NCBI GenBank assembly: GCA_963969365.1
Contig: OZ017759.1
Span: 2,356,001 to 2,420,000 of the forward strand
From: Asterochloris sp. CNOR1
Taxonomy: Eukaryota; Chlorophyta; Trebouxiophyceae; Trebouxiales; Trebouxiaceae
Direction of reading: 5' to 3'
DNA length: 64,000 nucleotides
Part shown: positions 1,748 through 63,965 of the stretch, piece by piece
How the letters are laid out: every line of letters begins with the position of its first letter
Position numbering within the stretch: the first letter of the stretch is position 1
Program-made: the position numbers and the translations under genes
The notes under the pieces: generated by a model
The model's database searches: none
Told to the model about the DNA's origin: nothing
The model's input: only the letters and a program-made list of their open reading frames with translations

Positions 1748-3060
1748 TCAGATTTCATGGAGATACAAACTGAACTGCCAATCCTCAAGAGCTGTTTGCT
1801 GTTCCTTGAATTCAATGGGTTGCCTCTTGCCCAAAGATATGAACAAACGTCCAACACGTCTAATGTCAGCGTCAGGTACTCCAGAACACTCATGCACCAA
1901 CCAAGCTATCACAGACAGCCTCATGCCAAGTTGTTTGATTGCTTTGCTGTAATCTGGGCCTTTCTTGACTTCACCTATGTCTATATAAGCAAACTTGCTG
2001 GGCGTGACATCCAGGTTGCCGCGGCAGTCCAATTGAAGTTCCTCACTGGGAAGGTACTGGACGAGACTGTTGAGGTCTTTGATATGCAGATCTGGTGGAA
2101 AGCATGGTTTCCCATCTTTCTTCAGTGCGGCGCTGATGAGGGCACATATGCCAGGGCCATTACATGATTGCATCATGGTGATCTGAGGCGCAACAGAGGT
2201 TGTCTTTCAGCAACAAGCAGGGTGGGGAGATTCATGACAGCAGAAGAAGGACCCACCTTGTCCTGAGCGACAAGGTACTTCTTGATGCGCACAAAAGTAC
2301 GCCTCAGGGTCTCATTCTCTAAGCTGCCCAGGAACGCACCAAACGCTCTGACGTCGACCTCTGAGTTGCTAGCGTTGATGACGATGGCCAGGATTGAGCC
2401 CGCTTCTGTCCAGCAGGGCATGCAGACTAACAACAAGTGACTCCAGCTCCTTAGTGTCTACAAGAACCTGTAAGGAAAACAAGCAACAGTGTCACGGTAT
2501 GCGCTTTCAGTGTAGTGAACAAAACATGCTACATACCTTGCCTGTGCTTTCAGTGCAGTGCAGTAAACAAAACAGGCAACATACCTGGACTGCAGGCAAC
2601 AACAGCGAAGCTTGATCCTGAAAGTCGTTAAGCTTTGGCTGAATGGCCCGATTCTTGAAGAGGTGCACAAAGTCGATGATGGAGCGAGCCAGCAGGCCCT
2701 TTGCATACTGGCCACCATGCTGGTCCTTTATGTCTCCTCTGAGCTGTCGCTCCACCAACTCGCCAAACTCTGACTGCAGAGCCTGCAACTCTGACTGCAT
2801 AGCCTGCTGTCCTGACTGCAGAACCTGCTGTCCTTCTTACACCCGATTGACAGGTCTGTAAGCTGCTTTAGGGAGTTTAAGATCTGCAGCATGTGTGGTC
2901 GGCAAGCTGAAGCTCTTATTGATGCCCAATGCTGCAAACATCGAGACAAAGAGCTTCACAGCAAGGCTGGCTGACCTTCTGCAACTCCTCGTCCAGGGAT
3001 GCGGTCGGCTTGAAGACGTGCCTGCGCCTTGTCAAACATGGTCTGGGCTGCAGGTGTGCT
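1748..3060 (-). CDS. Unknown protein with PD-(D/E)XK nuclease-like core
   Basis: I do not recognise the family. The last exon (2182 down to 1748) is joined to the one before it (ending at 2257) by a 74-nt intron. It reads GNLDV, then YIDIGEVKKG, then AIKQLGMRLSVIAWL. That order (Asp, strand, E-x-K, then a helix with Gln) is the PD-(D/E)XK nuclease pattern: Asp codon 2009-2011, Glu-Val-Lys 1964-1972. Upstream (about 2820-2585) lies a Q/S/L-rich coiled-coil stretch followed by GLLARSIIDFVHLFKNRA. The 5' exons near 3060-2940 (SLDEELQKVSQ) are tentative. At least one frame change seems needed between the recognised parts. The gene is head to head with the one starting at 3274. A donor-side 48-bp tandem copy lies at 2507-2586. 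The nuclease reading is inference from motif order only. Confidence 0.45.
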
Positions 3061-3273
3061 GTGCCCCGAGGAGCTGACTGTCTCATGGACATAGGGGCTG
3101 CTGGGCCGTGCATCCTTGCCCTCGCCTCACTCTTGTGCCATCGATACAAAGTCTTCTTCCGTTCTATTCGAAGAAGCCAATGACACTTTCTTTCTAGACA
3201 TATCAATGAGCTGAGCTTAGGCCTGTGTGCCTACTTAGAGCTTTGCGATCTCACTCCATAGGAGCAGGCCAGG

Positions 3274-4211
3274 ATGAAGTCTAAGCCAGGCAGCGGGAAG
3301 AGGCAAGACCGCAACTTTGAGATTGTTGTCAACCACATCATCATCAATGAAGACCAGCTGCCTCAGGTCTCGAGGCAGAGCATGGCGGCTCTGAAGGGTG
3401 TCTTTGGACACAGCATAAAGAAGTACTCAGGCACTTTTCACCACAAGCCAGGCAGCGAGCATGCACATTTCCTGGTGATGTCTGAGGCTCCTAAGAGCAA
3501 GAGTGCAGTTAAAGCCAGTATTTCTGCCTCCATGGCACTCATCTTTGACACAAAGAAGGATCCTGATCACAGGACAGTGGAGTTCATGTGCGGTGGAGAT
3601 TGGGAGATCTCACATGGAGGTGCCAGGAATGGTTCTGGACAACAAGGGCCAGTGCAAGTGGCAATAGCGGCCATCAGGGCAGGGACTCCAGAGTTGCAGT
3701 GCAAGACGTATGAGGAGTTTGAGCAGTGCTGGAAGCTGCTGCAGAGAGTGTGGATGGCACCACATGTACCTTGCCGAAGGTGCCGGGCTTTCTCAGTACT
3801 GTGCCCAAGCGTGTGAAGGGTGACTTCGTCCCCAAGCCTGCCTACGATGAGGAGGTGTTTAACGCCCCACCCAAAAAGGAGCAAACCAGCAAGCGGCAAC
3901 GCACCATGAAGTATTTGCAGGGGCCAGACGAGCAAAGCCTGAGAGAGGAGGTGGTGGTCCAACACAAGTTTCTGGAGGGACACCCTCCTGATTTTTACAG
4001 ATTCAGGCTCCTTGAGCCAATCAGGAAGTTGCAGTCTAACACCAGCATGCTCACAGTTCCCAAGCTGAAGCATTACTACAACCAGGCCTTCATGGCCCTG
4101 TTCCACGAGCACGTACCTCCTGGATGGATGGCTAGTTGTTCGCCACCAAGGGCACGTGTCACTTACAATCTGCCGGCAGCTGTTGTTGCTGATGTGATGA
4201 AGGCCAGATGA
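3274..4211 (+). CDS. Unknown protein, divergent partner of the nuclease-like gene
   Basis: A long intron-poor reading frame starts at 3274 (MKSKPGSGKRQDRNFEIVV), with lysine-rich, clearly protein-like composition; coding character continues in an overlapping frame to a stop at 4211 (VKGDFVPKPAYDEEVFNAPP; later YYNQAFMALFHEHVPPGW). I recognise no family. There is a His-x-His segment (GSEHAHFLVMSEAP) of the kind found in HUH nucleases, but no accompanying motif that would support that call. No intron that would join the two frames was found, so the gene has about one apparent break or a sequence error. Base composition looks less GC-rich than the downstream genes. It starts a few hundred bases from the nuclease-like gene on the other strand, which suggests a shared promoter or a two-gene unit. 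Confidence 0.4.
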
Positions 4212-4720
4212 TGCAACCCCCAGAGGCAAACCAAATTCCACATGCGGCTTGCGGCTGCCCTGCGCAAACGCTGGCGAGCACGGTCTGTGGCCGCCAAGGT
4301 CGATGCCCTTCGGCACTGGACCCGCGTCGCGTCGGGCATGCCCAGCACCTGCAGATGCTTGCAGGCCAGTGCGATACTCCCAGGAGCATCTCGCACCACG
4401 CCAGGCCCATCACTGCTGGCCTGCTGCCCAATGGGGCTGTGCAAAGCTCCACTGCAGCCTGCTGCGGCCTGCTGGAGCAGCTGCTGCTGCAGCTGCTTGA
4501 CCTTCTGGTCCAGGGCATTTTCTGGAGACTTGCCCTCCGCAGGCTGGCAGCCTGGTCCTGGTGACTGCCAGGCGTGCCCACATCATCGTTTAGCCTGCCT
4601 ACTCTACCCTCCAGCAGAGGCATTTTCTTAACCTGCTGCTGCTTCTGGGCAAGCTGCTTTTGTATCTGAGTGAGCTGCAGTTGCTGCTGGTTGAGCTGCA
4701 GTTGCTGCTGGGCAACTTAC
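4163..4720 (-). CDS. Possible Gln-rich coiled-coil coding segment
   Basis: The minus strand carries a Gln-rich heptad stretch (QQLQLTQIQKQLAQKQQQ, about 4705-4625), then, in another frame, ALDQKVKQLQQQLLQQAAA and LGMPDATRVQCRR down to a stop near 4163. The composition is protein-like, but no start, splice sites or family could be fixed, and it overlaps the 3' end of the plus-strand gene. It could be a gene remnant or chance repeats of CAG/CTG. Confidence 0.25.
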
Positions 4721-6409: not shown

Positions 6410-9400
6410 ATGGCAGACAGGCAGCAGGCAGCCCTGGATGTTCTGGCCAAGTACTGGGGGTTCCGGCAATTTCGCTCCTGCCAACAGGCACGCCCAAACC
6501 TGCTGCTCTGCTTGCGGCAGGGCATGCGTAAATCTTGGCGCCAAGCCTGTGTTCGTGACATGCAATACTTTGGCCTGGCATTCTGGCGCAATCCCTGAGG
6601 CATGCCCACCCTCAGGCACGCAGCCTATCCTCCCAAACAAAACCCACAGTGCCTGTGCAGGAAGTGGTGAACAGCGTCCTCTCTGGCCGCGACAACTTGG
6701 TGGTCATGGTGAGCCATTTCTCAGCCACGCCAAGCAGAAGCATGGACAGGTTCCAGTCTTCATCTGGCGTGCAAAGGCACAATGCCAATGCGCAGGACTG
6801 CAGACCCGCTGCCTGCCCATCAAGCCAATTGACTATGTTTCTTTCTGCAGGCCACTGGCGGCGGCAAGTCTGTGTGCTATCAGATTCCACCCCTGGTGCT
6901 ACAGAGGCCATGCGTGATCGTTTCACCTCTCATCAGTCTGATGGAGGACCAGGTGGGCACATCGTCTTCTGCTTGCCAGCACCAGGGCTACTATTGCCCT
7001 GTCAGTCAAAGTTAACATTTAGGAGCAGAGCCTGCACCAGGCTTCCTTTTACAGTGCCCCTGCACAGCATGCAGCAGGGCAGAGCATATTGTGGGGAATT
7101 TTCCAGCTTTTCACTGATGCTGCAATTGTGTTCTAGCAAAGCATCCCGTGGGGAACCACCAGCTCTCGACTAAAGCTGCGGTTAACTCCCTGCAAAGCAT
7201 GCAGCAGGCCTGTGCCAACGTAGTGCATCTGTGCCAACACCTGGCTGTAGTCCAGCACTCTTCACTTCGCAGTCCCTCGCGTCTGGTGCAGGCCAGTGAC
7301 ACTGCGGGCACCAAATGATGCCCATGGCTGTGCAGGTGTCTGCTCTCAAGGCAAGGGGGGTGACGGCATGCTTCCTTGGCAGCGCCCAGACAGATCATGC
7401 AATCACGCAAGGGGCGTGGGCTGGGGATTTTCAATTCATTTACATCACGCCTGAGCTGGCTGCCTCCAAGCTGTCTGCACTGCAGCAACTACAGAGAGAC
7501 CACGTGAGTCCTTGGATGAGCGCACCCTGAGGCAGACGAGGAGCGCTGCATGGCAGCAGCAGCTGCAGACTGCGCTTGGCAGACCTTTGCTCCTGGCCAG
7601 CATTGCTCTTGGTGCAATGTTCTTGTGCCTCACAGGCCGTCCTCTGCTGCAGGGTCTGTGTCTGGTAGCTGTTGATGAGGTAAAGCCCTCTTATTATATA
7701 CCACACTGCTAAGTCCTGGGCCGGGCCTTGCACAGAATTGCAGTGAGCAGTGTGGTATGTGGCGGCAAGCTTGGAAGTGCATCCTGCAGGCGCACTGCAT
7801 CTCAGAGTGGGGCCATGACTTTCGGCATGAGGTGAGGAGCTGCCGTGCCTGATGCTGTGCAGCACCGCTGCGCACCTGCTGCACCGTGCTCCAGGTTGCA
7901 GCTGGGGGCCAGGTCAGCCAAGGGCTCTATGAGTGGCCCTGTACGTGTGCTGCCAGCTGCTGGTACTCATGCTGCGTGCATGGCTGCAAGGCATGACTCA
8001 CAGACGCTTTGGCCCTTTCTCTCGCTCGCTGGGGTCAGCTGCAAGGCATGCCTCGCTGGTGCGCTGGCGGCTGCGTGCATGTCCCAGCTTGCAGGCATGA
8101 CCATTTGATGGGGTGTCCCTGCACTGCCGCTGCATGCAAGCCTCAGGAGGTCCACCTTGCCGACATGACCAACTGCTGGGGTGGCCTGCGCTGCAGTTCA
8201 GGCAGCTGGGCAAGCTGAGGGACAGCCTGCCGGGCGTCCCCTTCATTGCTGTCACAGCCACAGCCACCCCAAAGGTGCAGAACGACATCTGCACCAACCT
8301 CCACCTGAAGCCATCCCAGACCGACAGGTGACCACTTCCACTGATGGGTGATTAGCACTTGACAACTACGCTGTGTGCTCTCTGAGGAACCAGGCTGCTG
8401 CTCACACTGTGAAGGGACAGACTGCTCAGATCCTGCGCAAAGTGTGGTGAGTGCAGTAGTGCTTCGGGTCGACAGCAAAGCGTGCACGCAGCTTCTGTCT
8501 CTGCAGGAGTATCAGCTGCTCTGCCCACTCCTTGCTTGACCGTTAGCTGCAATGTCTCCCCTGGCTCTGTTGCTCCAGGTGGATCATGGGGTTTGACCGG
8601 GACAACCTGCACATCTCAGTCGTCAAGCGGATGGGCGGGCCCCAGGAGCTGTTTGCAGACCTCATTACCCAGAAGCAGGACACAGGCAAGCCTGAGCTCC
8701 AGCACACTGCTGGTGCGCGCCAGCTTGCGGTTAGGCTGCATCCTGACCGTGCAAGCAGCGTGATTCTGCTTGGTGGCGCTGCCGCCGTGTGCACTGGCTA
8801 CCCCCTGACCACAGCCTTGCTGCATGGGTAGCGCTCATGTGCTGGGAAGCGCTGGTGTTTGTCCACCTGCTGCCTTGCAGACTGCCCCCAACAGGCAACG
8901 CGTCTCTCCCTAGAGGTGCTGGACCTTGTTGGAGTTGCCCCTTGGGCAGCAACTTGATTAGCAAGCAGCGCATCATTACTAGCTATCATCGGCCTGTGGC
9001 AACTGACGTCTGCCCAAACTGACTCAGCAGGCAGCAGGGCTTTGCAGGATGAGCTGCCTGACGTGCATTTGACAAGATTACGAGCCCTTCCACTCAGCAG
9101 CAGCAGAGCACAGCTCCATGTGTGCACATACCTCGCTCTAAGGTCAGGCTGTTGCTGTAGGCAGCACAGAGCCCACCACCATCTACTGGTCTGCACAACA
9201 GCCACACATGCTGCTGCCGCCCCCCTACAGTTGGGGTGTTGTCTACAGGCTGCACACCTCCCGCCCTCATCCACTTGCCTGCAGACATATTCCTGTTTAA
9301 TTTCTCTGAGTTTCCTGTAGGCAGTACAGACCCCACCATCATCTACACACTGACCAGGAGGGACACAGAGGATCTTGCCAAAGCCCTGCAGCCGGTCTTC

Positions 9401-12400
9401 AAGGACCGCATTGCCATGTATCATGGCGGCATGAGCACCCCCCAGCGCTCGGCAGTCCACCACAGGTTCATCAATGATGAACTGGAGGTGGGGTTGCACC
9501 TGTCAGCATCTTCTGTGGGTGCACAGTGACCTGCCTGTCACGGTGAAGCAGCGCACACCGGTCCCTTTGCTGGGTAGTCTTGTTCAACACAGGTGTCAGT
9601 TGGGTCACACAACTGAGATGCACTGTGCCCTGCTCCAACTCTGCGCAGCGGCTGCAGTCGTGACTTGTGGACTGCCTGGCGTGCATCACTCGGCGAGTGG
9701 CAGACAGGCAGGCGGCCAGGCGGCCAGAGCACATCCCTCTTGCAGCGTCTTGCATGCTGGCCCCGCCCTCTGGAACAAACTGGGACCTTGAAGGTTGCCC
9801 CAGCCACTGTGCCCCTCATACCCCCACCCCTCCTTCTGCCCCCGCCGATCATCACCAACAGCACGCTGCACATTGTTTCCGCCATCTGGCCTGGTCTGCG
9901 AAAATCAGCGTGTTCGCTATGAACTGGCCTGATATGTCTGCTGTCTTGCTGCAGGTGGTGGTGGCTACAGTGGCCTTTGGCATGGGTGAGCAGCGTTTCG
10001 GCCCTGGGGTGTCCCCAGCAGCAAGGACTGATGGGCACCAGACAGCTGATGCAGAGCAGTGACTTCATCATCAGCAGCCTGCTAGCCACTGCACGCCTGG
10101 TGCATTGACAGCTGATCTTGACACAAGAGGGTGCCCATGCTCGCTTTTTGGAGGCTGCAATCAGACAGGAGAGCTGCTGCTGGCTGCAGGCATCGACAAG
10201 AGCAATCTGCGCAACGTCATCCACTACGGGGCTCCGGCAACGGTGGAAGCCTATTACCAGCAGGTGTGCTTCAGGCCCCTGGTTTGTGTTGTATTGTGCC
10301 ACATGATCTTGTCAGCTCCTTGCAGTTGCTAACTGCGCCTGCTGCCTACAACAAGTTGCAGCTTGCCTTGCCATGTGTGGTGCCCAGTCCTGGGCTGCCC
10401 AAATAACAAAAAAGTGTCCGTGGCAGGCCTGCAGCGTATGCAGGAACAAGTTGTGTAGTGCAGAGTCAGCAGCCGCCATGAGCACCTGAGCTGGCTGCAG
10501 TCACATGTAGGTCCCTCCACATCCAGCAGAGGTGTTGCGGTCAACCCTGCCTGCATTTGGTTGTTCACAGCCCCTATGCTGCCCTGTGCTGCTTGGTTAA
10601 GCACAGCTCAAGTGCCCTGTGCTGGCGCTTTTTGACAGCAGGGTGCAGGGACAGCCACACATAGTAGCTGGGCTGCCGCAATGTTAAAAAGCAAAGAAGA
10701 GAAAGCTTGCAATGTGGCTGGGCACCTGCAGATCTGTGCATTGCAGAGTTAGCAGCTGCCCTAGGCCTATGATTAGGTCTCAGCTGTGTCATCAAGCAGC
10801 AGCTATGCTGCAATGGGGCCTGGCAGCTCAGCTCCCTGTGCTGCATTGTGCTGCTCCTCTAAGCACAGCACAACCGCCGTGCTGGCACTCTCTTGTCGTT
10901 TCTGCAGGTGCAGGTATCGCTACACAGCACTCTCCATTGTTCAGGAAGCTGCATAGTGCTCCTGCCTTGCTACAGCTGGTCACCTCAGATAGGGCGCAGT
11001 GGTCAGTCACAGCATATGAGCTTGACCTCACTGTGCGTGTGCTGCAGATTGGGCGGGCTGGCCGTGACGGGCTGCCCTCCAAGTGCAAGCTCATGTGGAG
11101 TGCGCAGGACTGGGTCAAGAACAACATGATCCAGGTGACTGTTGATGATGAGCTCGTCAGAGCACAAGCTGCAAAGTGCAAAGCAGTGTGGCAGGGAGCT
11201 GCCAAGATTGTGGTGTGGGGCTCAAGCTGCAATCTGGCACAGCAATGCAGCGGCCCTGGGTCCCAAGCTGCGATCAAGCAAAGCATTGCTTTGGGAAAGT
11301 TCTGGACTTGGGGTTCAAGCTGTAATGTGACAAAATGCTGCAGCAGGGGAGCTGCCAAGAGCAGTGACCTTGCCATGCCTCTTGAGGCAGGTCACTGCAC
11401 CTGTGCTGTCTTGCAACACGCCAATGGGCTGACGACACTGCCAGCACTCGACTTGTGTGTCAGTGGTCATGCTCCAGATGGGTAAGGATCCGATTCAGGG
11501 CCGCTGCTGGAAGCTGCACCAAGCTCTTGATGGCAAATGTGGCTGCGCTGTGTCCAGGCTGGGAGCAAGCAAACCTGCACCAAGACCACGCCCAGTTCAC
11601 CACTGGCGGTGAATTGCATCAGGTGCATGCTGTTACATGGAAGCAATACCCCTGGCTTCTACAGACTTGCTGTGCAGATTTTACGCAACATGCAGGGATA
11701 CGAAGGCATAGGCCGCCATGCAGTGCAGGAATTGCAGGACACTGTGCCTGAATCGTGCATGCTGCATGCAGAGCGTTGATGGTGCGGGTCCCCAGGCAAT
11801 GCTGATGGAGACAGGCGCCCAGGAGACGATGTTCTGATGCAGCAGCAGCAGTGGCTGCCAGGACCTGCAGAGCACCGTGCCCAAATGTTGCACATGCTGC
11901 ATGCAGGGGCGGGGATGGTGTCGGCTCCCAGGCAATGATTGCCTGATGGAGACAGGCCCCCAGAAGATGACATCCTTCTGCTGCAGCAGAGGCTGCCAGG
12001 AAGTGCAGGGCACCGTGCCCAAATGTCGTGCATGCTGCATGCAGGGCAGCGTTGTGCAGGCTCCCAGGCACTGCAGGAGACAGGCCCCCAGAAGATGATG
12101 CCCTTATGCTGCAGCAGTGGCCGTCAGGCATTGCAGGATGCAAAGCCCAAACGTCGTCCACTCTGCGTGCAGGGCGGTGATGGTGCGGGCTCCCAGGCGA
12201 TGATGGCCACTCAGGAGACAGGCGCCCAAAAGATGACCTCCTTCTGCTACAGCAGTGGCTGCCGGCACGCCTTCCTCGTCAATCACTTTGAATCCAGAAA
12301 GGAGGCAGCTCCTGTCCAGACGGCCTGCTCGTGAGATTGGTGGCTCCTCTTGCACAGCGTGCAGATGTGACTCCAGGAAGACTGAGGCAGAAGTGTCTGG

Positions 12401-15400
12401 CCTGGCCCCTCTTGACTGCCATGCGCCAAGTGGAGCCACAGCTTGCCTGATCCATGACGTCTTAGAAAGGAAGCCCTGCTTGTCCAGACGACATGCTTGA
12501 GAGCTCTGATGAGCCTCTGTGCACACCACCGGTTTGACTGCGTGCTTCTTCCTGCCGAGCATGACATGGAATTGGACTTGCTCCTGTCCTGTCATTGCAG
12601 TACCTGCGTGCCAGCCTTATTGCTACACCTGGCAATTGGAGCCTGTCAACCTTCTGCATGCACCAGCCCACACATGGCCATGGGCTGCCCGCTCTGCAAA
12701 GGACGCCCAGCCCCTAGCTTGTTCGAATCATGCGGATGTTACATTGCGCCCCAATACTGCCCTGAGCCGGGCCTGTGACCAGTGTAACAAAACTTCAGCC
12801 TGTCCTAGGTGTAGCACAATCTCTGCACTTGCATGTCCACTTCCTCCCTTGAAGCAATACAAGAAAGGAACTGCAATGTCTGGACTGCATCTGCCTACCT
12901 GGCACAGCCTCACCAGCCCTCAAAGTTGCCTGCAGCGGAGGATGTGACAACTGCGACAGGCGCTTGCGCGGGGATGTGACCCAGAGGGACTTTCAGGCAG
13001 ATGCTGCACTGCTGCTGGCAGCTGTGCAGGGCTTGAAGGGCACCTATGGGCTGGCCAAGCCCATTGCTGTGCTGGCTGGCTCCATGGCCAAGGTGAGACT
13101 GCCTGCAGGGAAATTTGGCACCAGGTATGCAGTATGCTTTGCGCCTCCATGCTCACAACCAGAGCCCTCAGGGGTCAAACTGGGGCACCTGGGAAGGCAA
13201 ACCCATTGCTGTGCCAGCGCAAGCTGCGGCTGCCCTTGTGGGGACAGTTGGGACGATGGAGCTGCGCTGGGGAGGCAGCAGGTATGCCTTGATGTGACAT
13301 ATTCAACTCCAGAATCGCCCAGCCATGCTTGATAGTTGTTGTTGCTGAATGGCACCTGCTGCTGCGCTCTGCAGGATGTGCCTGAGAGGCTGCGGCAGCT
13401 GCGCGACCCTGGCGGCCAGCTGCTGCACGGAGCAGGCAAGCATCGCAGCCGAGACTGGTGGAAGGTCAGTCTGAGGGGTGTATGTTGCCTGCAGCTGCAT
13501 GCGACCCTGGCAGTAGGCTGCTGCGCAGACACTGAGTCTTGAGCCTGAGGTGCAATACAACAAGCGCTGATGCAACCTTCCAGCGAGCTGCAGGTGACTG
13601 GCATGTTTCTGCACAACTTTTGCAACTGAGTTGAGATACCACAGGCCCGCACCAGTGTTTCCCGGCTGCTCTGGCGGCCTGCACCACTCCCGGCTGCTCA
13701 AAGCAGGCTGCTGTGCCTTCTAGATGTTGATCGTCCTTGGTGCTTCAGTTGAGTTGACCACCACTCAGGTTCCTCGAACCACTACAATGCCCTCCCCTGA
13801 CGACAATGCCCAGCTTCACAGGTGGCAGAGCCTCTCTTGCCATCCTGGCACCAGATCAGGCGCTGGCAATGCAGGCGATGCATCTGAAGGCAGTGCCGGC
13901 TGGGCTGGTGGTGCATAGCCTGTTAGCGATGCACTGCAATCATCAGCTGTGGTGCTGGTGGCAGCAGAGGTGGCTGTGCTGCAGGCCCTGGCAGGCATGC
14001 TGATGGAGCAGGGCTTGCTGGCGCTGCACCGCAAGCAGATGGGCGGCTTTGGCGCAGGCGGCAGAGCCGGCGCCTTTTCAGCGATTGCTATTACGCCGCA
14101 GGTGGGCACCCTTTAAACAAAGCTGCGCATCGATGATCATAAGAAGCTGCAGGGTCTGGAACTGCTTGTGCACAAGCTCCTTTCTTTGATTGCATCAATT
14201 GCAGGATGCTGGACATCCTGACATGGCCCTTTGAGCCACCCTCAAGCTTTGAGCAGGTAGTGAAGCAGAAGCATGGCACACGCATCAGTCTTGGCAGCTG
14301 CACTCGGCCCCACACCTGACCTGTTTCCATACAATGTGTGGCAATCAGCAGCTGCCTCACTATTCTAGCTTTTTGGTACCCCAGTTCTGGGTGACCTGCT
14401 TTGCAGGATATCATCAACTTAAAAGGATTTGATGCCTCCTGGCCTGCAGGGCCAGAGCTTCTTGAACAACCCTCGGCCCCTGGAACTGTCAGTAGCTGCC
14501 GAGATGGTGGCTGAGGAGCGCAGCAAGGCTCAGGTGAATGCTTTGCCTCACTGCTGCGTGGGGCACAGGCTGTGTGCGGCCTGCTCTTCAGCAGCAGTAT
14601 TCCAACCACCACCAGCTTCAGCTGCTGCAGGCAGGACTGCACTATGCAGCGCCAGTGCCATCTGAAGCACGTGTCGCATGCTCTTTTCTTCAAGAAAGTA
14701 AACCCTGGCAGTGCAGACTGAGGCCACTGCACAAATGTGGCAGCTGCAGCCCAGACCAAGGTCATGGTTGCAGATTTTGATGAGTAAAACAGCAAATATG
14801 CAGCAAATTGTGTTATGCCTTCTAAAGCGCTTCTGTGCCAAGCCCCAAGACTGCACTGCGAAGCTCTGCATGTGCGGTGGAAGCTGAGGCAGGAGAGGCA
14901 GCCTCATCAGCTGCACCTGTTTCAGTATAAGCCAATCTGGGCAGTCTTAGCAAAGTGTTCAGCTTTGTGCTGGTGGTGCAGGATGAGGCTTAAGCGCACA
15001 AAAGAAGAGAAAGCTGCCTAAATAAGCAGAAATTCCACAATGCACTCCATCCTATGCAGGCTGAGGCTGAGGCACAAAGGCGGCAGGACCAGCTGCAGCT
15101 GCTGCAGTCCAAGCAGGACAGAACCAGGAGCGAGGAGCAAAGACTGTTTCAGCACCTCACTGGCTTGCGCAAGGTAGCTGCTGGGGCACTTCCGCGGCCT
15201 TGCCACCAGCTGCCCTGCCTGCATGCGGGCGCCATCTGTCTGGTGCTTGCAGACAACATTGTTGCTGCTGGGGGCTGGGCTGCAACACTTCAAAGTCCGT
15301 TGCTAGCCACACAATCTGCAGGAGGCAGCCTCCTGCTTGTCGGTTGCACCGCAGTTGAGCAGAGCAGCAACAGGAGTGCGTGGAAATTCCATGAACACTT

Positions 15401-50600: not shown

Positions 50601-52281
50601 ATGACTCAGCGCATGGCCAGAACCAGGCCTTCAGCAAGGGTAGCAAGGATGGGGACAGCGACACGGACCCCTTGGATCAGGCAGAGGCAGCCGGTGGAGC
50701 TGCCAGGCTACCCCATGCAGTGGCCAATGTGCAGCATGAGTGGGCTGACCCTGACGCGCAGGCTCGCTCCGTTCGGCTGTCGCCTGCCCAGAAGCGATTC
50801 TGGTGAGTCTGATGCCTGACAAGCCCAGAAGATGGGCGCTGTTTGTGCAGGCAGCTACATGTGAATCTGGCCTGTGTGACTTTTCAGAGATACCTCTGCT
50901 GGAATGGCTTCCCCCCCTGCGCTGCAGGGGCATCATTGTGGCGTCGCTTGCAGGCGCAGTGGGGTCCCTGTTCAGCCCTGGGTTCAATGTGAGTCCTCCC
51001 AAAACAAGTGCTGGGATCAGCCTTGGCATGCCCTTCTTGTTTTGAAGCCTCTGCCTGATGCTGGCTTGCAGGTGGTGACCAACGACACTTTCCACACTCT
51101 GGCCCCGGGCGTGCAGCCCCTGACAGTGTACACAGGTGCGCCTCTACAGCTGCCAGGCTTTAGTGCTTGGAGCACATCACTGCCTTGCTTGCAATGCGTC
51201 CTGGCTGCTTGTATTGCTTCTCGGTGTGACGTGAGGTCAACTCTATGCATGCTGCTCATATTTGCCACTCTCAGGATGTGTTCCGCTGAACCTGCGTGGT
51301 GCAATCTGCAGCCCTGACCATGCAAATGCTATGCCTCCCACAGCGCTGAGGTCCGCTGCCTTCAGGCTACTTCTGGTTCTGCGTGCCCTTCATCCCGCTG
51401 TGCATCCTCCAGTGCTCCATCTTCATGCGGTGGCCCATCCTGGGGCAGAAGCGCACCACCTGGACGGCCTGGCTCAAGGACCACAAAGGCAAGCATGAGA
51501 CTTGCTCTTGCGATGCCTGTGCTACATCTGTTGCCATCCAGTGGCATATCACTTGCCTGGTGCCTGGCTTGTGAGAGCACACTAGCCCTTTTTCTTGGGG
51601 GCGTTCATATCACATGGCCTGTAACGCATGACGTGCTGCTTTTGGCATTATTGCTTGCCAGCTCTTGTTGTCCACTGATCATCAACGTGGATTTGGCCAG
51701 AGGGCTGTGCCGGCCCCTAATGTGGTCAGCTTAGGTGCCGGCTGCTAATCAACCCTCAGTCCCAGCCTCTCAGACTGCTCCAGGTGTTTAGTGAGGCAGT
51801 GTATGCAGCGGTCATGTCCGCCCTGCCCGGCATAAAGCCCGAGAGCACGTTTGAAGTTTGGTCAGGTGTCCTGTGTGCTGCAGACATGAGCTTGACCTGG
51901 GGCCCCTGATACGGCACTCTGCATTCAACTCTCAATGGGCTGCAGTAACTGGGCGGGGCAGGCAGCTGGCTACTTGAAGGGAGGTCTGATGTGTGCTCTG
52001 CGCTGGCTGCAGGCATGACGTGGTTCTGGGGCTTCCTTTCTGGCGTCCTGGTGTCGGCTGCCAACGTGCTGCAGTTCCTGGGTGGCCAGGCGGCAGGCTA
52101 TGCAGCCAGTGACCTGGTGCAGGCCAACCCCATCATTGCCACTCTGTGGGGCATCTTCCTGTTCCACGAGTTCCACCGCAGCACCACCTCCAAGCTGACC
52201 TACTTTTTTCTGGCCTGCATGTATGCTCTCTATATCGGCGCAGTAGTGCTGCTGGCCATCTCGGCCAAGGCCCGAAATTGA
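47607..52281 (+). CDS. UPS: Ureide permease (UPS family)
   Basis: Membrane carrier of the plant UPS family (10 transmembrane segments, DMT-like), importing allantoin and related ureides, uracil or similar bases with protons. Ten exons: 47607-47670, 47826-47891, 48046-48167, 48938-49076, 49874-50027, 50524-50802, 50928-50988, 51072-51135, 51366-51488, 52013-52281. The total is 1341 nt, 446 aa, in phase throughout. Family landmarks: start MLTVDTRGGAIALL against plant MYVVESKGGAIACM; GTWGALLNLAERKGR; ILFPGVACFFLAFVAGS; SPGFNVVTNDTFHTL; then VYTGYFWFCVPFIPL, FMRWPILGQKRTTW and FLGGQAAGYAASDLVQANP close to the C-terminus. The hydrophilic central loop (exon 50524-50802, Asp/Gly/Ala-rich, about 93 residues) is longer than I recall for plants. 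Substrate is inferred from family only. Confidence 0.93.
48660..48985 (+). repeat. Four acceptor-side copies before ureide permease exon 4
   Basis: The real acceptor ends at 48937 (GAGAAGAAGCCCCTGATTGG). Copies follow the CAGs at about 48667 (GAAAAGAAGC), 48748 (GGAAAGCAGCCCCTGATTGG) and 48844 (CAAAAGAAGCCCCTGTTCTG). Each continues into a copy of the codons for GVCIFFG. Unit about 80-95 bp. Confidence 0.88.
49495..49527. repeat. Perfect 15-bp hairpin with 3-nt loop
   Basis: CTGCTCCCGAACAGG (49495-49509), loop ctc, CCTGTTCGGGAGCAG (49513-49527). A further partial copy of one arm follows at about 49533-49549. It lies within the intron between ureide permease exons 49076 and 49874. Confidence 0.9.
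50012..50312 (+). repeat. Donor-side triplicate after ureide permease exon 5
   Basis: The exon end with donor (ctgatggacca, gtgagcagctg; donor at 50028) recurs at about 50192 (tagtggaccagtgaggagct; donor 50199) and 50278 (aagctgatggaccagtgagc; donor 50291). Confidence 0.88.
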
Positions 52282-55301: not shown

Positions 55302-58300
55302 ATGGGCAGCTCAGATCAGGGCAGCATGCAGAACGGCGTGGGGGAGCAACAGTATGAGCGCGTCCCCAGGGAGGGCTTGCAACTTGCTGAGCTCAATGGC
55401 GTGGAGACCACCAGCGCCAGCAGCTTTGAGAAATTGCAGCCCCAGTGGCGCACTTCCAGGCGCACCAATTCGCGCTACGCAAAGAGGCCCACCAACCTTG
55501 TGGCTGAATCTTGCCAGGTGAAGGTGGGGCATCCCTGCAAGCGTGCACCTATGTGGCCCATGTCACATGCATGTGCTCACCATGCCAGCATGCAGCATGC
55601 AGTCATAATACGGGGGCAGAAGACAGCGTGCGCTGTTGGGGTGATCGCTCATGTTGACCGTACATGTAGAGATGCTGGTGGCTGGCCCCCTGCCTTGCAC
55701 TGCCCAGAGAAGGCAACCCACATGTTGCGATGCCCTCCTGCACACACGCCAGGCTGAGAGATGCGCACCCAGTCGGCGCTTGCATGCACTGCCAGTGTAG
55801 TAGGTTGTGGCGCTGACAGGCCACGCTTGCTGCACTCTGCTGACCGCTCCCAGTACAACTGCTGACAGCCCCAGGTTCCTGTGTACTGCAGGAATCTCCC
55901 ATGCCGGAGCATGTGGAGGTCATGCGGAGCAACGACTCCAACCCAATCAGGGTGGATGGACGGATCTCATCTGATCACAGCAGCAATGTGGGCAGCTTCA
56001 TGGCTGAAGGCAAGTCCTGGGCCTGCCTCTAAACCCTACCAGCAGCACCACCCATCCAGCAGCTCGGGGGCAGCATTTGCCTGGTTCATAAGCTGTGGCG
56101 CCACTTTGCGCACGTCACAGGGGTGCCCTTGCCAGCCACTTCAGAAGACCCACAGACCATACCGCAGCCAGGGGAGGAGGTGGCGTTTGCCCCTGGTTGG
56201 AGGGTGCCCACAGCCATCATTTGTGGGCCTCGCTGCTGGCTGTTGGTAGCCAGGTGCCCTGCAGTGTTGGGCCGTCAAGCCCCACGGGTGTGAAGCTGGA
56301 GCAGGCTGACTGCCAGCTCAAAGCCATTGCGGAGGATGCCCGCTCAGTGGACTCAATAGAATTTGCCTCAGTGTCAGGCTTTGGGGGTGAGGCTGCCTGT
56401 GCCTCCTCTCTGAGCAATCGGTCTGCTGTTCACCTCAGTGTCAGCATGTGTCGTGGGGCTGCTTGCCTCAGCCAGAGGTCCTCCATCCCAGTCAGACCTT
56501 GATGGTGAGCAGTGGTCAGGTGGTCTAAAGTCCCTCTTGGGTTGCCCACAACAGAGGCCGGCAGCAGCAGGGTGGGACAGGCCACAGAGTCCTTTCCGCA
56601 TGCAGCAGCCGACCCAGCAGCAGATCTATGACCAGCACACTCCTGACATGGATCAAGGCATCACGCTGGACAGGGTGCCAGGGCCTGACTTGTGCTCCTC
56701 ACGGTTCACTGCTGCAGCCTGCAGATCGCCACTCACTGGCCAGTTGCGCTGCCTGTCTCAGGTCTGACAATATGGGCTGTGCTGCATCTTGCTTCACATG
56801 GCTGCAGCTGAAGCTGCAGCGCAGACCATGGGCAGACCCAGCTGAAAGCATCTTGACCGGCAGCTTGGCGGTCCTCCCGGCACATGAACCCTATGAGGGT
56901 CTGCCCCAACTTAGCAAATACTACCTGCCTGCAGACCCAAAGTTTGGGAGCATCGGGGGCTCGGAAGTGTCAGACACTGGCCTGGACATCCGCGATCAGA
57001 CCCCTCAGGTCACAGTTGTCTGGAGGAACCTGACGGTGGTGAGTCAGGGGTTCCAGCTGCTTGTTGTGTGCCAGCAGCGGTGCAGACTGGTGCAGAGGGC
57101 AGCATAGCTGCTTGTGACCTTGTCTCAGCCCGAACATGGCTGAAGCCTTGTGACCAGACTTCTGTAGGAACAGTGGTTCAGCGCGACCTGATGGTGGTGG
57201 GCGGGGGTTTCCTGTTGCAGGACCAGAGCTGACAACAGCAGGTCTGGAGGAGTTTTTGCGTTGGGTGTCGGCTGATGCATAGGCGGCACAGCTGTTAGTG
57301 AGTCAAGGCCCTGTGGGGCTCTGAACGGGATACAGGCAGCAGAGCTGGCTTGTCAAGCCCTGCTGACGAGGCAGGACCCTGCTCCCAGTCTGTTTTGGAT
57401 CAGCTCACCTGGCGCATCAGCAGGCGCCAAAACTTGCCCATGATGCGCCTGGGGTTTGTTGGTCAAAGAATTAATTGGGCTCCCAGCTGTTTCAGCCTTT
57501 GATTCCAAAAGAAACCTTTTCAACTTATGCGTTTGGGCTGCTGCCCACATCATGGCCTATTCATCCTTTTGTACAAGGAGCCAGCCTGCTTGGCATGACA
57601 GCTGCTGCTTCACTTCTAGGCAACCAGGAGCAGACTCACCATGGGGAGCAGAGCTGCCGCCTGGGTAGAGTTGGTGTGTTGTGGCTCAAGTGCAGCATGC
57701 CTGCTGCTGTATGAGGGGCCACCTGCAGTGTACAGCTGGCTCACCAGTGGGGGCAAAGCTGCTGCCTGAGCCACGATGCCATGTGGAGGGCTGGCACAAG
57801 CTTGGCACGCCTGCTGATGAGCGCCCTCGGTGAGGTGTGTCACTGTACTTCGCAGCCCCATGCTAACTGCTGCCTTATGTTGTCTGCAGCGCAGCAAGCA
57901 GGGCTTTGGACGGGGGCAGGTGGATGTGTTGAGGGCAGTCAGTGGATATGCAGAGCCCAGGTGAGACCCGCGCTGAATAACCTAGGTTCCTTTGCTGGGT
58001 CTTTCTCATGCATGCTGACACCATGCTCCTAGCACCCTCTGGTCTGGCAGTGCATGCTGCTCTATCAGTGGCCTGATGCTGACTACCTGACCTTGCCTGC
58101 TTTGATGCCTTGCTGGTGGCAGCTGGCTCCATGCTGAATGAACTGCACTCCCTATACACCGACAGGTTTGCTCATATGCAGCTTTGCTGGTGTGGCTCAG
58201 CACCGCAGACTTCGTCAGTGAAGCTGTTTGCCAGCCGCTGCAAGCTCCAGCAGGCCTGACCAGTCTGCGCTTCTGCCTGCGTGCAGCAGCCTCAAAGCTG

Positions 58301-61300
58301 CTCGTCCACTCCACTGCTGTGAGGGTTGTGCCCAGTCTGGTATTTGATATAAGACAGAACAAGACTGGGTGCTGTTCAGTGCCTGAGCTTCTGTGCACAA
58401 CCAGGGACTTGTCCTCCAGCTTGACAGTGCGCAAGCCCCAGCCCTCTGAAGCCACTGTCTTGTTCCTGTATGCAGGAGCGTCACTGCCATCGTGGGCCCT
58501 GCTGGGTCAGGCAAGTCAGCCCTGGTGGCAGCGTTGGCTGCACGCCTGTGCCCAGGGAGCTCAGCTGTTGGCCAGGTGCGCACTACAGCACGCTTTCCAT
58601 TGTTTCAGCAGTGTCCAAAGCCAGAAATATGGCCACATGCAGTGGCCCCAAGCGCTCAGCTGATGGCCGTGTGCGTATCCCTGCACCCTTTTCATCACTC
58701 AATTGGACCAGTCTCACACTTTGGCGTGATGTTGTAGCTCAGGGCGCTCAGCTGTTGGCCAGATGCAACTCAGCACACCTGTTGTTGCTCCACTTGAGCC
58801 AGCATCGTGCTGTGGCATCCTCTTGTGCCCCCATCATGTGGCCCCACAGGGGAGTGTGGATCGCATCTCAGCACACTGCGTTCTGTTGTGCTGAACACCA
58901 GTCCAAGTACAGGGTACTGGCAGTGATGAAGCCCTGCTGTGTTGGCGAAATGCACAGATTGTAGCAGACTGCTGTCGCATACATCATCCTGCTCGTGGCA
59001 GGCATGTGACAGAATGCAGGACCAAGGGCAAGCAGAAGCACACTAATGCCCTTCTGCAACACAGATTGTTCTGCTTGCTTCTCTGTTATGCTACAGGTGG
59101 CCAAAGGCAAGCATCAGCAGGTTCCACCTTAGTCCTTGGGCCTCCCTATCACCAACTGTTAGCAACCTCTGCTGATTTTCCTGCTGCAGGTGCTGGTCAA
59201 CGGGAAATACCACCGCACCAGCACACTCAGCGTGACCTGGATCACCAACCAGGACGAGTTGATGATGCACATCACCGTTAGGGAGACTCTGACGCACATG
59301 GGTGAGCATGTACTGCCTGCCTGCCTGCTGTCTGTATGCCACGTGCACCTTCCTACCTAGGTCTTCTCGGCGCCAGCCGTCTCGGCGCCAGCCGTCGCAT
59401 GGGCTTCAGCAGACTGTCCTTGCAGTGGCCCAGCAGCCCCTGCTACTATGTGCCTCTGGACCAGACATTTGTGTGCCAGTGCTGCATCTGTTTGAGCTGA
59501 GAGTCCTCATTGTACCCCTGGCTGTCCCTGCTGCAGTGCGATCTGGGGCACAATGGTACTGAATCATCAGCTCCATACCAGCCAAATTTGATTGTCCATG
59601 GCTGGGGGGTCCTCACTGTGCTCCTGGCTTGCCCTGCTGCAGCGCGCCTCCAGATCAAGGACACTGGCACTGGCAACATCAGCAGCGTGGTGCATGATGT
59701 TGCTCAGCAGCTGGGCCTGCTGTCATCCCTCGACAAGATGTCACGTGAGTCCTCAGGTTGGGTGAAGGCATGCTGACAGATGACGCGGAAGTTCGCATGT
59801 CCCAGTCTCCCAATGTGTTGGATTTGGCTGCGCCACACACTCCTGGACCGTCTGGTGGCGCTTGTGCTGGATCAACCGGCGCATTCGATGCTTTTGCCAC
59901 CAGCACCGAGCCCGCCCACCACCAGCAACGGGATCATGTGGGCTGGGAGGACTAGTACAAGTGCCACCAGGCGGCCCATGAGTGGTGCCACCATTCAGTG
60001 GGCGGGGATGTCCTGGTGTGGTGCCATCTTGTTTTGCCAAAGCAGACTGGTCCCTTACAGCTGAACCCCGTGCTTTCCTAGTGGCTGCCTAGCAGCTGAG
60101 CCTGCTGTTTACCCTCAATGACTTGCTGGCTGGTGAGGTGGCCCTTTGTAGGGTTTCACGGCTGTCTCGGAAAGGCAGGGACCGACGCTGGCACTGCAGC
60201 AGTCAGTCAGCCCACCATAGGCGTCAGCACCAGGCCACCCAGGCCCAGCAACTGAATGTGGTGCACACACAGAACAATTTATAGTTTCTCTCTGTGCAGA
60301 CGAGCTGTCTGTGGGCAACAAGCGGCGCCTGTGCGTGGCCACCCAGCTGATCAACTGCACGCCCCTGCTGGTGCTGCACGACATAATGGTTGGGATGAAC
60401 GAGGGGGACTCGCTGGCCATCATGCGCTGCGTCTCAGAGTACTGCAAGTGAGCTTGACCTAAGGGTCCAGATGTTGCAGTGATTGCTTACTGAATGGTCC
60501 CCGGCTTCACCATACAAGTTACTCAGTCAAGTGCATGGCCCAAGGCCATTGGCTGCTGCTGCTGTGCTGCACAGCTGCTGTGCTGCATCTCAGACTTCTG
60601 CAAGTGAGCATGACCAAAGGGTGCAGATGTTGCTGTGCCTGCTCACTGAGTTCTCCCCCAGCTTCATACCGCAAACTGCCCTAGTGCTGCGAAAATAGTG
60701 CTTGGCTTGACATTCAGGCCACTAGCTGCTGTTGCTGTGCTGCACAGCAATGAGCCATCATGCGATGCATCTCGGAGCACTGCAAGTGAGCAGTGCTCTG
60801 TCTTACAGATTGGATCGATGCGCTGAACGCTGGTTATTTGAGAACAAGCTCCACAGTCCTCAAATTGCGCTGCCTGCAGATTGGCATGCATGGCCGCTGT
60901 GGCTAAGGAAGCAGCCTTACTGAGATGTGTGCACATACACACCAAGTCGCCTGCATTGGCTGTGAGTGTCAAATGCAACACCTGCAGGCTGGAATGCACG
61001 CCCATTGTGGGGCCAGATCAGCCCTCCACCAATGCGTCCACCTTGTTCTGAACTCACCAAGGCACCTGCAAGTAGCTTAAGTGTCATGTACATGGCCTGC
61101 AGAATGGGGTGCACAGCCATTGTGGAGGCAGAGCAGCCCTCCACCGATGTGTGCAGCTTCTTTGACCGAGCCTACATCCTGGCCCAGGGAGAGCTGGTCT
61201 TCTTTGGCAGCACCGGGCACGATGCCGTGCAGCTGCTGACTTCAGCAGGCATGCCCTGCCCACCCCTGTACAGCCCTGTGGAGCAGTTCATGCGCCTGAT

Positions 61301-63965
61301 TGACCCCACATTTGAGGTGAGCCGTGGTGTTAATGACGTGCTCTGGTTCACACCACAGGTCTCAAGCCTTTTGAACAAGCACAATCAGTCCTTGGGATGG
61401 TGGCTGCAAAAGTCGGCCCAAGGCTGTTGATGTGTGGGCCACAGACCGCTTCAGCAAGCTGCAGGGTCTCTGTGTGCTGAGCCACACTGCGCAGCTGACG
61501 GATGCCATCAACGCCCCTTTTGCTGTGCAGGTGTACCTTCAGACAGCGCCCGGCGGCGCGGAGGAAGGCTGGACCGCCAACTTCAGCAGCATGATGACCA
61601 AGCTGCTGCAGGAGAGCTACGATGGCAGCAAGGTGCAGCGGGAGGCCCAGCTGAGGACCGAGGCTCTGGCCACGCTCACAGAGGTGCCAGGCTTGCCGCC
61701 GCTGCCAGACCTGCCACCCAAGGTGAGGGGAGCAGGGGTAGGGCAGTGCATCAACCGCTGCGAGTTGGACAGCAGCCTGCCCTCTGCACCAAGCGTACTG
61801 CACTGCTATCATGGGACGGTGGAGAGGCAGGCCAGGTGGTGGACTGATGCTCTGGCTGTGCTGCCTCAGCTTCCTGATGATGATCGTCTGCGCAGTGCAG
61901 GGACAATCTTGAATGTTGCACTGATGCAAGTACTACTGGCAGGGGCGCCCGTCAACGCCATAAAAATGCAGCATGAATTCTGCACATCTCTGTGCTGGAC
62001 AAGTTGATTGTCGTCTGTAGTTGCAGGGATGCTGAGCCTGCAGAAACGCACTGCCCCACCATCTGCAATGCCTGCTCACTCACCTGTCCAGTGTGGTGTC
62101 CTTGCGCATATGGCGCGAGTTGCTTTGTGACTGCCTTCAGGGAATAGAGCCTTCAATCTGCTGGAGTTCTGCTCAGGAACAGCTTGGTGCCCTGTGAGAC
62201 GCATCTCTTCACGTAGGTCACGTCTAAACAACGTGCATGTACTGTTTGCAGAAAGCGCTGTCCCGGAACCTGCAAGGGAAGCTGATCCAGATGCGCTGCC
62301 TCATACAGTCCCTGCGATCCTTCTCCATGTTCCAGTCGCGCCTCCTGCTGATCATTCTGATCACTCTTGTCTATGGCGGTACCTACTGGAAGCCCGATCA
62401 CACCTACAGGCAAGCTTGGCTGCTGTGCTTGGAATCCATCTCCTGTCAGGTGGTGGTATTTCAGGGCTCAAGTTGTTCTGTGGCATCTCGGATTGTTGTG
62501 AGGCGCTGGAAGCCATCTGGAATTGAAGGCAAGCAGCGCTGGCTGCCTAAGAATATCTTTCAAGTCCTCATCGTGCGTGTAGATTGTGCGCTTTGGCATG
62601 TGCAAGGAGGGGCAAAGCTGTTGCGACCTTGTGTTTTGAGACACAAATGCAGAACCCCTTACCAAAAAGGTGCATCGGAAACACTCTCAATGTCTTGCTT
62701 GTTACTTCTGAATCCATTTTTGCTCTTGTGCTGCAGGGGCCTGGAGTACCGCCTGACAGTGCTCTTCCTGGCTTCCTGCGTGCTGCCGTCCCTGGCAGTG
62801 CTTGCTCTGCCCGTGTATGCCAGCAACCACAAGGTAGGCACGCCCTTGATTGGGCTCTTTGTAGTGTCCTTTGTGCCGCCATCTGTGGCAGTGCTTGCCC
62901 CTGCCCGTGTACGCCAGCAACGCCAAGGTAGGCGCGCCCTCACCTGGGCTGTTTCTGGTGTCCTTTCTGCTGCCTGCCCTGGAAGCGCTGGCCCTGCCGG
63001 TCTGCGCCAGCCCCACAAGCTGGAATGGAATGATGCAGCGCCCGCAGACATGGGCATGCTCGCATTGTGCACACCGTCTTTGTGGAGCTGGCCTGCCGCA
63101 CCGCAACCCCTGAGGGTGGTTGGAGAACTTCCATTTCTGGTTGAGCAACAACAAACAGTTGAGGAATGATTCGGTTTTGATTGCACATGCGGCAGTCTGC
63201 AGCACTGAGGCTAAGCAAAAGAGGTACAAACAGAAGGGAGCCCTCAGGCCACAATGGTCCCAAACACCAAGGGCCTCTCCCTGATTGTCAGCTGCAGGTT
63301 GCACTGTAGTCAGCAGGCTGCAGCAACTGTACAGTGCTGTCCCTTTTGCCTGCAGGTCTTTGTGCGTGAGCGTGACACCTGCAGGGAGTGCCCCTACGCC
63401 TTCCTCTCCAGCACAGTCTTCACCTCACTGCCCTACCTGCTGGTGGCTGCTTGCCTCACGGCCATTGTTCTCATTCCCATGGCTGGCCTCAACTCCTCAG
63501 GTGAGTGCTTACACTTCCCCACTTGCTGGTGGCTGCCCGCCTTTTAGCTGTGATGTCCACCTCAATGCCTCAAGTTGAGGCCACACCAGAGCTAGCCTCC
63601 TCGGTGTCTGCAGCCCTTCGAGTGCTGATCATTCAGCCAGATAAAGCTTGTGAGCATATGCCCAGTTCAGCACTGACTGATGGTGCCTTCACAAGGAGGG
63701 GCACAGGCAACCTCAGCCTGCCCACACACACAAATGTGGGAACCCCTGTACATGGCGTCACCCGGTGGACATGCAGCGTGAAGTCACCTCAGCCGGCACT
63801 GCCTCAACACCGCCTTGTCAGATGCACTTCCCAGTGGCTGCACCTCTGGTGCAGGCGCCGCGTGGGGCTACTTCATCCTCTGCACCTGGCTGACCTACCT
63901 GATAGCAGACGCCATTGTGCTGCTGATCAGCCTGCACGTCAAGCGGGAGCACATGTCTCTGGCAG
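55302..63965 (+). CDS. ABCG half-transporter with degenerate nucleotide-binding motifs, 3' end missing
   Basis: Membrane exporter of the ABCG (white-brown) type, NBD before TMD, continuing past the window. Exons: 55302-55517, 55892 to about 56010, about 56257-56386, about 56560-56676, about 56824-57038, 57890-57960, 58476-58575, 59190-59301, 59643-59744, 60300-60447, 61103-61316, 61531-61722, 62252-62409, 62737-62833, 63356-63500, 63855-63965. The N-terminal 250 or so residues are polar and unrecognised (exons 2-5 have uncertain edges). NBD: VDVLRAVSGYAEP, Walker A GPAGSGKSA, Q-loop TNQDE, signature LSVGNKRRLCVATQL (usual SGGE/Q), Walker B LLVLHDIMVGMNEGD (usual LDEPTSGLDS; Glu replaced by Ile), H-loop IVEAEQPSTD (usual IHQPS; His replaced by Glu), then FFGSTGHDAVQLLTSAGMPC. 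TMD: FQSRLLLIILITLVYGGTYW, LTVLFLASCVLPSLAVL, VFVRERDTCRECPYAF, SSTVFTSLPYLLVA, WGYFILCTWLTYLIADAIVL. A weak ATPase that works with a partner half is the natural inference. Confidence 0.88.
58545..58780 (+). repeat. Donor-side copies after the Walker A exon
   Basis: The exon end agctcagctgttggccag with donor gtgcgc at 58576 is echoed at about 58647 (gcgctcagctgatggccgtg) and 58743 (gcgctcagctgttggccaga), each followed by related intron sequence (actacagcacgc / actcagcacacc). Confidence 0.7.
59365..59394 (+). repeat. Exact 15-bp tandem duplication
   Basis: tctcggcgccagccg twice in a row in an ABCG intron. Confidence 0.95.
60425..61145 (+). repeat. ABCG intron with triplicated donor side and triplicated acceptor side
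   Basis: Donor block (tctcagagtactgcaagtga; donor 60448) recurs with donors at 60604 and 60786; the last copy also keeps the preceding codons for AIMRC. Acceptor block (cctgcagaatggggtgcaca; CAG ends 61102) is preceded by copies ending at 60879 (attggcatgcatggccgctg) and 60987 (gctggaatgcacgcccattg). The middle acceptor copy extends through cagccctccaccaatg. Confidence 0.9.
62765..63019 (+). repeat. Three tandem copies of an ABCG transmembrane exon end
   Basis: The exon end coding VLPSLAVLALPVYASNHK with donor gtaggc at 62834 is followed by a copy with donor gtaggc at 62928 (gccagcaacgccaag before it) and a third lacking a donor, ending near 63019 (ctggccctgccggtctgcgc). Unit about 94 bp. 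Confidence 0.92.

Follow-up and report, generated by a model that had tools for sequence, protein, structure and literature searches.

Genes and curated exons

The stretch analysed here is a 64-kb part of contig OZ017759.1 of the green alga Asterochloris sp. CNOR1 (hereafter the window), in which exons of five genes were curated. Short direct repeats, some of them including exon edges and splice sites, are dense in it, and short local tandem duplication of a general kind, filtered by selection and not specific to exon-intron junctions, has probably lengthened its introns. The curated genes, with the Pfam families found in them, are as follows.

6851-20647 (+), RecQ helicase (PF00271, PF09382, PF00570)
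25008-21465 (-), riboflavin synthase (PF00677)
26894-38340 (+), sucrose synthase, 24 exons (PF00862, E = 4.9e-149)
47826-52280 (+), ureide permease (PF07168)
57038-63500 (+), ABC transporter, ABCG-like (PF00005, PF01061)

Curation relied on protein homology, phase and splice dinucleotides, with Pfam as a check. The models are incomplete, some exons being missing or known by one edge only, and contain 135 splice junctions, of which 125 are on the plus strand (58 GT donors, three GC donors and 64 AG acceptors). The transporter at 57038-63500 is presumably of the ABCG type, judging by domain order and by motifs. The presence of sucrose synthase, ureide permease and riboflavin synthase would by itself suggest eukaryote DNA from a green alga or plant. 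A self-trained gene model over-called exons and was replaced by the curation. A Pfam scan of raw frames, run on the 6 kb-15 kb region only, gave one weak match and was dropped in favour of the curated exons; the yield was weak because exons are short.

Local direct repeats

Repeats were detected by BLAST of the window against itself and then with a more sensitive local-alignment scan. The BLAST comparison returned local direct matches and almost nothing besides. With scores of at least 20, the scan found 77 raw pairs at offsets of 10-300 bp: 22 at 10-100 bp, 45 at 100-200 bp and 10 at 200-300 bp, corresponding to 3.8, 7.0 and 1.6 pairs per 10^6 bp^2. Pairs more than 10 kb apart, a control that preserves composition, including the abundance of CTGCAG-like words, have a density of 0.007 per 10^6 bp^2, which predicts about 0.1 pairs where 77 were observed, an excess of local direct repeats of two to three orders of magnitude. 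Inverted repeats with scores of at least 20 number 14 in the window, one of them within 400 bp. Direct orientation, short offset and absence at distance, the hallmarks of local duplication, are all present.

At a score of at least 18 and offsets of 15-1300 bp there are 112 pairs, or 90 after de-duplication, and 85 of these have an offset of at most 700 bp, where chance is estimated to produce one or two (background 0.03-0.05 pairs per 10^6 bp^2). The five pairs with offsets above 700 bp were left out of the mask, cluster and rotation tests. Offsets are mostly 85-280 bp, with the middle half at 105-209 bp. Identity within pairs ranges from 60 to 95%, and for 80% of pairs it falls between about 66% and 86%; three short arrays reach 100% in Tandem Repeats Finder. 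In 27 of the 85 pairs at least 80% of the offset is filled, as would be the case for head-to-tail units, and arrays are legible by eye at 48651-48995, 60416-60792 and 62754-63019.

The 85 pairs group into 53 clusters: 25 overlap a curated exon by at least 8 bp, nine are confined to introns and 19 are in unannotated DNA. Bases inside a copy make up 14.9% of the window, compared with 3.3% covered by Tandem Repeats Finder rows; their share is 13.6% in curated exons, 16.0% in introns and 14.2% in unannotated DNA. Local repeats also occur in two regions without exon models, a gene at 1748-3060 (repeats at 2500-2592) and the EsV-1-7 region (43588-45746).

The location of many repeats in introns would agree with decayed mobile elements or introners inserted side by side. 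However, no match with a score of at least 26 was found beyond 1.2 kb in the 64-kb window, and the units contain sequence of the neighbouring exon, which makes such an origin exceedingly improbable.

Copies of splice sites

Twenty-one of the 135 curated junctions have at least one copy within 1 kb that extends over the splice site and about 6 nt to either side of it (score of at least 16). The 27 copies are distributed over the RecQ, riboflavin synthase, sucrose synthase, ureide permease and ABCG genes; eight of them score only 16-19, a range in which about two chance matches are expected (null 1.5% at a score of at least 16). A sequence-only reading of the window, made before this analysis, had described segments of exon edge, splice site and intron copied within the adjoining introns of these genes, of the EsV-1-7-like gene and of the gene at 1748-3060, at no fewer than 16 loci in all, and the curated junctions of the five genes confirm both the pattern and the number. 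Its further claims that the copies are graded from near-identical to decayed and that the exon-adjacent copy is the one used are borne out. Copies and arrays, gene by gene, are listed below.

9152-9487 (+), RecQ exon 9321-9487: copy on the acceptor side at 9161 (35 bp, 89% identity)
11726-12268 (+), RecQ gene: array between curated exons, 138 bp x 4
14611-15173 (+), RecQ exon 15060-15173: partial exon matches upstream in intron, scores 18-22
18995-19509 (+), RecQ exon 18995-19111: donor-side copies, the donor itself being covered by the copy at 19435
19561-20176 (+), RecQ exon 19785-20008: acceptor-side copy at 19636 (AG kept), donor-side copy at 20163 (GT lost)
20197-20527 (+), RecQ exon 20521-20647: array of 82-83 bp units filling the intron up to the acceptor
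23659-23960 (-), riboflavin synthase acceptor 23686 (exon 23686-23580): acceptor-side array, about 105 bp units; far copy has AA for AG
24225-24419 (-), riboflavin synthase acceptor 24235: copies at 24311 and 24390, AG kept in both, score 19 each
26522-26635 (+), outside curated introns: head-to-tail duplication, 55 bp x 2, 89% identity
28487-28834 (+), sucrose synthase exon 28641-28834: acceptor-side copy at 28534
29244-29526 (+), sucrose synthase exon 29478-29526: duplicated on the acceptor side (offset 118 bp); the site itself is weakly copied at 29395
34625-34981 (+), sucrose synthase: intron-only array, about 125 bp units
35738-36163 (+), sucrose synthase exon 36013-36163: acceptor-side copy at 35747
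36919-37147 (+), sucrose synthase: young array confined to the intron, five units of 42 bp, pairs 83-95% identical
41215-41449 (strand not assigned), unannotated region: array with units of about 67 bp, identity reaching 90%
48651-49076 (+), ureide permease exon 48938-49076: upstream acceptor-side array, period about 93 bp; two copies span the acceptor, a third matches the exon edge
49874-50315 (+), ureide permease exon 49874-50027: donor-side copies at 50199 and 50291, GTGAG kept
51877-52280 (+), ureide permease exon from 52013: acceptor-side copy at 51884 (score 19)
56994-57218 (+), ABCG donor after 57038: copy at 57197, 158 bp off
58476-58826 (+), ABCG exon 58476-58575 (P-loop): donor-side copies at 58671 (GT) and 58763 (AT)
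59503-59744 (+), ABCG exon 59643-59744: acceptor-side copy at 59537
60300-60792 (+), ABCG exon 60300-60447, donor TGCAA/GTGAGC: donor-side copies at 60604 and 60786, donor kept in both
60872-61316 (+), ABCG exon 61103-61316 with acceptor: upstream acceptor-side copies at 60988 and 60880, AG kept in both
62737-63019 (+), ABCG exon 62737-62833 with donor: two decaying exon-edge copies in the intron, period 93-94 bp; only the first still has the GTAGGC donor

The three GC donors among the 61 plus-strand donors are at 31428, 34510 and 51489. A weak copy (score 16) of the donor at 31428 lies nearby at 31591 and is likewise GC.

Decay of the copies

Exon copies sit in introns or unannotated DNA, and in none of the pairs within 700 bp are the two copies both mainly exonic. 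The sole exon-exon pair among the 90 is 1.1 kb apart. Two sucrose synthase exons have a 29 bp stretch in common (27645-27673 and 28769-28797; 90% identity) that encodes QFLARM in both, by chance, by convergence or as an old exon-exon copy.

Mismatches between exon and copy occur at all codon positions (69 of 320, 59 of 332 and 97 of 328 at positions 1, 2 and 3), and the offsets of the 31 exon-touching pairs are spread evenly modulo 3 (10, 10 and 11). Thus, the copies are not coding: the copy ages as non-coding DNA, and the exon gains silent changes. Where one copy has CpG (360 comparisons), the other keeps it in 32% and has TG or CA in 41%; the corresponding change of GC to GT or AC is seen in 9%. 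This CpG-biased change indicates natural ageing, not assembly error. With differences of this kind, and with four fifths of pairs as diverged as given above, it is hardly credible that the copies are an assembly artefact. In the whole window (GC 57%), CpG is depleted (observed/expected 0.38) and CA/TG is in excess (1.68). CpG to TG or CA is also the top change between local copies, and the genome is therefore probably heavily methylated at CpG.

The splice dinucleotide is kept in 23 of the 27 copies, or 17 of 21 when each junction is counted once. In matched cryptic sites of similar overall identity it is kept in 93 of 167 (P = 0.0025, with copies that are not independent), and for the first 111 junctions 21 of 23 dinucleotides are kept, against 13.4 expected from the other dinucleotides of the same pairs (P = 0.0005). 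Both comparisons favour the selective retention of copied splice sites as working alternative or regulatory sites. However, the signal is weakened because these controls let both copies decay, while selection fixes the used site. With the used site fixed, retention of an estimated 0.66-0.77 is expected, and P becomes 0.02-0.22 per copy and 0.11-0.45 per junction. After one-sided decay had been considered, selective retention was withdrawn as firm evidence. Furthermore, use of the copied sites would mostly shift the frame, as only 10 of the 31 exon-touching offsets are multiples of three. Retention for a function is thus quite unlikely. The copied sites, or decoys, are not purged, and there is no firm sign of their being kept.

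Growth of existing introns

Introns with copies have a median length of 608 bp (21 introns), compared with 356.5 bp for those without (40 introns, P = 1e-4). When recognisable spare copies are removed, the median of copy-bearing introns falls from 614 bp (under a slightly different criterion) to 431 bp. Spare local copies account for about 2975 of the 28097 curated intron bp (about 10.6%), and older ones are presumably now beyond recognition. The lengthening of introns on both their donor and acceptor sides, which the sequence-only reading had proposed as a continuing process, is supported; that it continues is a separate point, weighed below.

Intron gain by tandem duplication of sequence that includes splice-site motifs has been described (Hellsten 2011; Gao and Lynch 2009), and the available text of a review treats the mechanism as accepted (PMC3443670). 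The duplications in the window resemble those in including splice-site motifs, and their density would suit the formation of new introns here from AGGT segments. However, donor and acceptor ends of the same intron are alike in only one of 61 introns at a score of at least 16 (null 1.0%; mean score 8.87 vs 8.88), and no pair covers a junction in both copies. As intron ends are not alike beyond chance, the AGGT route to new introns is not seen, and intron gain of this kind is very improbable for the window. Unlike in AGGT intron gain, it is existing introns that are lengthened.

In a potato RdRp gene, as far as the available text of PMC4974935 describes it, a tandem duplication took in intron-exon structure including the acceptor and produced a new intron and an inserted exon, and a second duplication of 83 bp inside an intron left gene structure unchanged. 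The tandem duplications in the window likewise take in acceptors, but unlike in potato the spare copies remain intronic. Compact green-algal genomes carry long introns. For Chlamydomonas and its relatives, the driver of intron length is given as likely ancient and the advantage of long introns as unknown in the part of PMC8226300 available. In the window, one concrete source of the DNA in introns can be read from about a tenth of curated intron bases. Annotation of such genomes should allow for introns that may carry convincing splice-site copies and exon fragments.

Position of the duplications relative to junctions

Junction preference was tested at points and by rotation. At a score of at least 18, a local copy was found for 15.3% of junction windows (n = 111, those curated at that stage), 16.0% of mid-intron windows (n = 764), 12.6% of mid-exon windows (n = 223) and 16.9% of evenly spaced windows (n = 626); 0.07-0.31% of these test windows matched distant DNA. 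Junction cores lie inside a copy in 12 of 116 cases (19 of the 135 junctions, with flanks outside curated spans, were left out), and the rotation mean is 13.2% (sd 3.0%). At a score of at least 26 there are still 12, and the rotation mean is 10.7%. Among the 27 clusters wholly in curated spans, the other 26 of the 53 being left out of cluster rotation and of the placement model below, 12 include a junction, where rotation gives 10.7 (P = 0.33), and 18 reach into an exon, where it gives 14.6 (P = 0.10). Unannotated DNA is also nearly as copy-rich as introns. Model-free tests thus give no significant excess at junctions over mid-intron DNA in this window.

The sequence-only reading had made duplication a process of the junctions and had named as its own refutation a genome-wide finding of self-matches no commoner at junctions than elsewhere in introns; this is what is found within this window, to which the test was confined. 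Its account of tandem duplication, graded ages, intron lengthening and use of the exon-adjacent copy stands, and the junction-specific part does not.

Several observations nevertheless weigh against a general process without regard to junctions. At a score of at least 25, the shares become 9.0% for junctions, 6.7% for mid-intron, 4.5% for mid-exon and 7.8% for evenly spaced windows. Of the 18 clusters scoring at least 26, 12 cover a junction, the rotation value being 8.4 (P = 0.053). Random duplication with selection and detection was also modelled; the model, which gives every cluster two copies and so sets the expectation too low for larger arrays, expects 37-44% of clusters to touch an exon, while 63-67% were observed. 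The counts at the three cut-offs are 18 of 27 (38-42% expected), 15 of 23, and 12 of 19, with P between 0.002 and 0.07. This excess hints at some exon-edge preference, or at longer survival of copies than modelled, and together with the shares at the higher score it is consistent with a junction preference that is not more than weak. The same figures, with the covering copies at 21 junctions, are those that favour a junction-directed process that copies exon edge plus splice site, driven for instance by R-loops or splicing-coupled breakage at the splice sites. Given the score 18 shares, the rotations and the copy-rich unannotated DNA, a directed process is unlikely, and any junction preference is at most modest.

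Other points against general tandem duplication as the cause of intron growth concern the copies themselves. Pairs that fill less than 80% of their offset (58 of 85) may be decayed tandem units or products of non-tandem local copying. The difference in intron length is partly trivial because longer introns offer more room for duplications. That the process is still running is suggested by the range of identities in one window. Eight short arrays, of which one is badly registered (59% identity), have 0-4 nt of microhomology, which does not discriminate between mechanisms.

Proposed process

Under general duplication filtered by selection, short local tandem duplications would strike introns, exon edges and other DNA alike. 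Those within a coding exon would be eliminated by selection. Those within an intron or across one exon-intron junction would be tolerated, in the latter case because the exon-adjacent copy still links the exon body to a working splice site. The spare copy would be spliced out with the intron, which would grow, and part of the added DNA would consist of copied exon edges and splice sites, subject to decay like any other non-coding DNA, CpG loss being foremost.

The duplications most likely originate in the repair of staggered breaks, formed by nearby nicks on opposite strands, through gap filling and end joining rather than replication slippage. Adjacent single-strand breaks in plants are said to give rise to tandem duplications, reportedly from work by Schiml, Fauser and Puchta in 2016. 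The molecular step is carried over by analogy from rice insertions, for which staggered-break repair has been proposed as the source in the available text of PMC7407515. The rice insertions are similar in comprising local tandem or partly tandem duplications of 10-1000 bp and non-tandem copies from within 200 bp. Unlike the rice cases, which were studied as insertions, the window, itself genic, has a standing load of old and young copies in 13-15% of its sequence.

Methylation and duplication might have one cause, although this is rather unlikely: deaminated 5-methylcytosines on opposite strands would be excised by base-excision repair, leaving paired nicks, staggered breaks and finally tandem duplications of about 100 bp. 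This link is speculation drawn from CpG depletion and from a base-excision idea quoted in the accessible part of PMC7407515. If it were true, methylation damage would lead to steady intron growth, with splicing as the buffer and junction-spanning duplications nearly neutral.

Comparison with other sequences and systems

The comparator consists of 12 stretches (198 kb) of one metagenome-derived assembly, picked for Ras or RRM matches. Such matches were also found in bacterial control genomes (13 and 2 of 14), and the stretches are possibly not all eukaryotic; coverage by long open frames is highest in L036, L043 and L044 (0.61, 0.66 and 0.84). At a score of at least 20 and offsets of 30-300 bp, the comparator has 33 pairs and the window 64, and in-copy bases amount to about 1.0% and 13.2%, an approximately 13-fold difference relative to a single assembly that is a weak baseline. 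L044 and L045 contain 27 of the 33 comparator pairs, and the pairs inspected there (8 of 23 and 8 of 13 raw pairs) form one array in each. E. coli has two pairs in 50 kb.

The youngest arrays in the window (42 bp x 5, 67 bp and 55 bp x 2) would qualify as minisatellites, a class known from introns. Unlike minisatellites, many clusters comprise two or three diverged copies that fall short of the threshold at which such repeats are usually detected. Searches of the literature on intron-associated tandem duplication, intron expansion and tandem repeats of Trebouxiophyceae or green algae found no title describing this pattern, most subscription papers being outside reach so that absence from print is not established, and gave no baseline density at this detection sensitivity.

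Other observations

No tRNA was found in the window, nor any Rfam family at the gathering threshold. Open frames at 1748-2206 (-, 152 residues) and 3262-3816 (+, 184 residues) have no Pfam match at E 0.01. EsV-1-7 cysteine-rich motifs (PF19114) are present at 43322-44863 (-), where two stretches are alike at about 1 kb spacing; these repeats (43490 and 44552) may be protein-domain repeats and not intron duplications.

Searches of viral contigs with sucrose synthase, ureide permease and alpha-tubulin gave no match, and the alpha-tubulin search of genome contigs gave three loci. In L001, L002 and G001, from an assembly titled Verrucomicrobiaceae MAG (metagenome-assembled genome), there are eukaryote-like alpha-tubulin (86-90% identity) and Ras genes in several pieces, and eukaryote contamination of that assembly is probable. 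A contig titled Methylococcaceae, with 82% long-open-frame coverage, encodes at L003:10001-10693 a protein that is 61% identical to the alpha-tubulin query over 231 residues.

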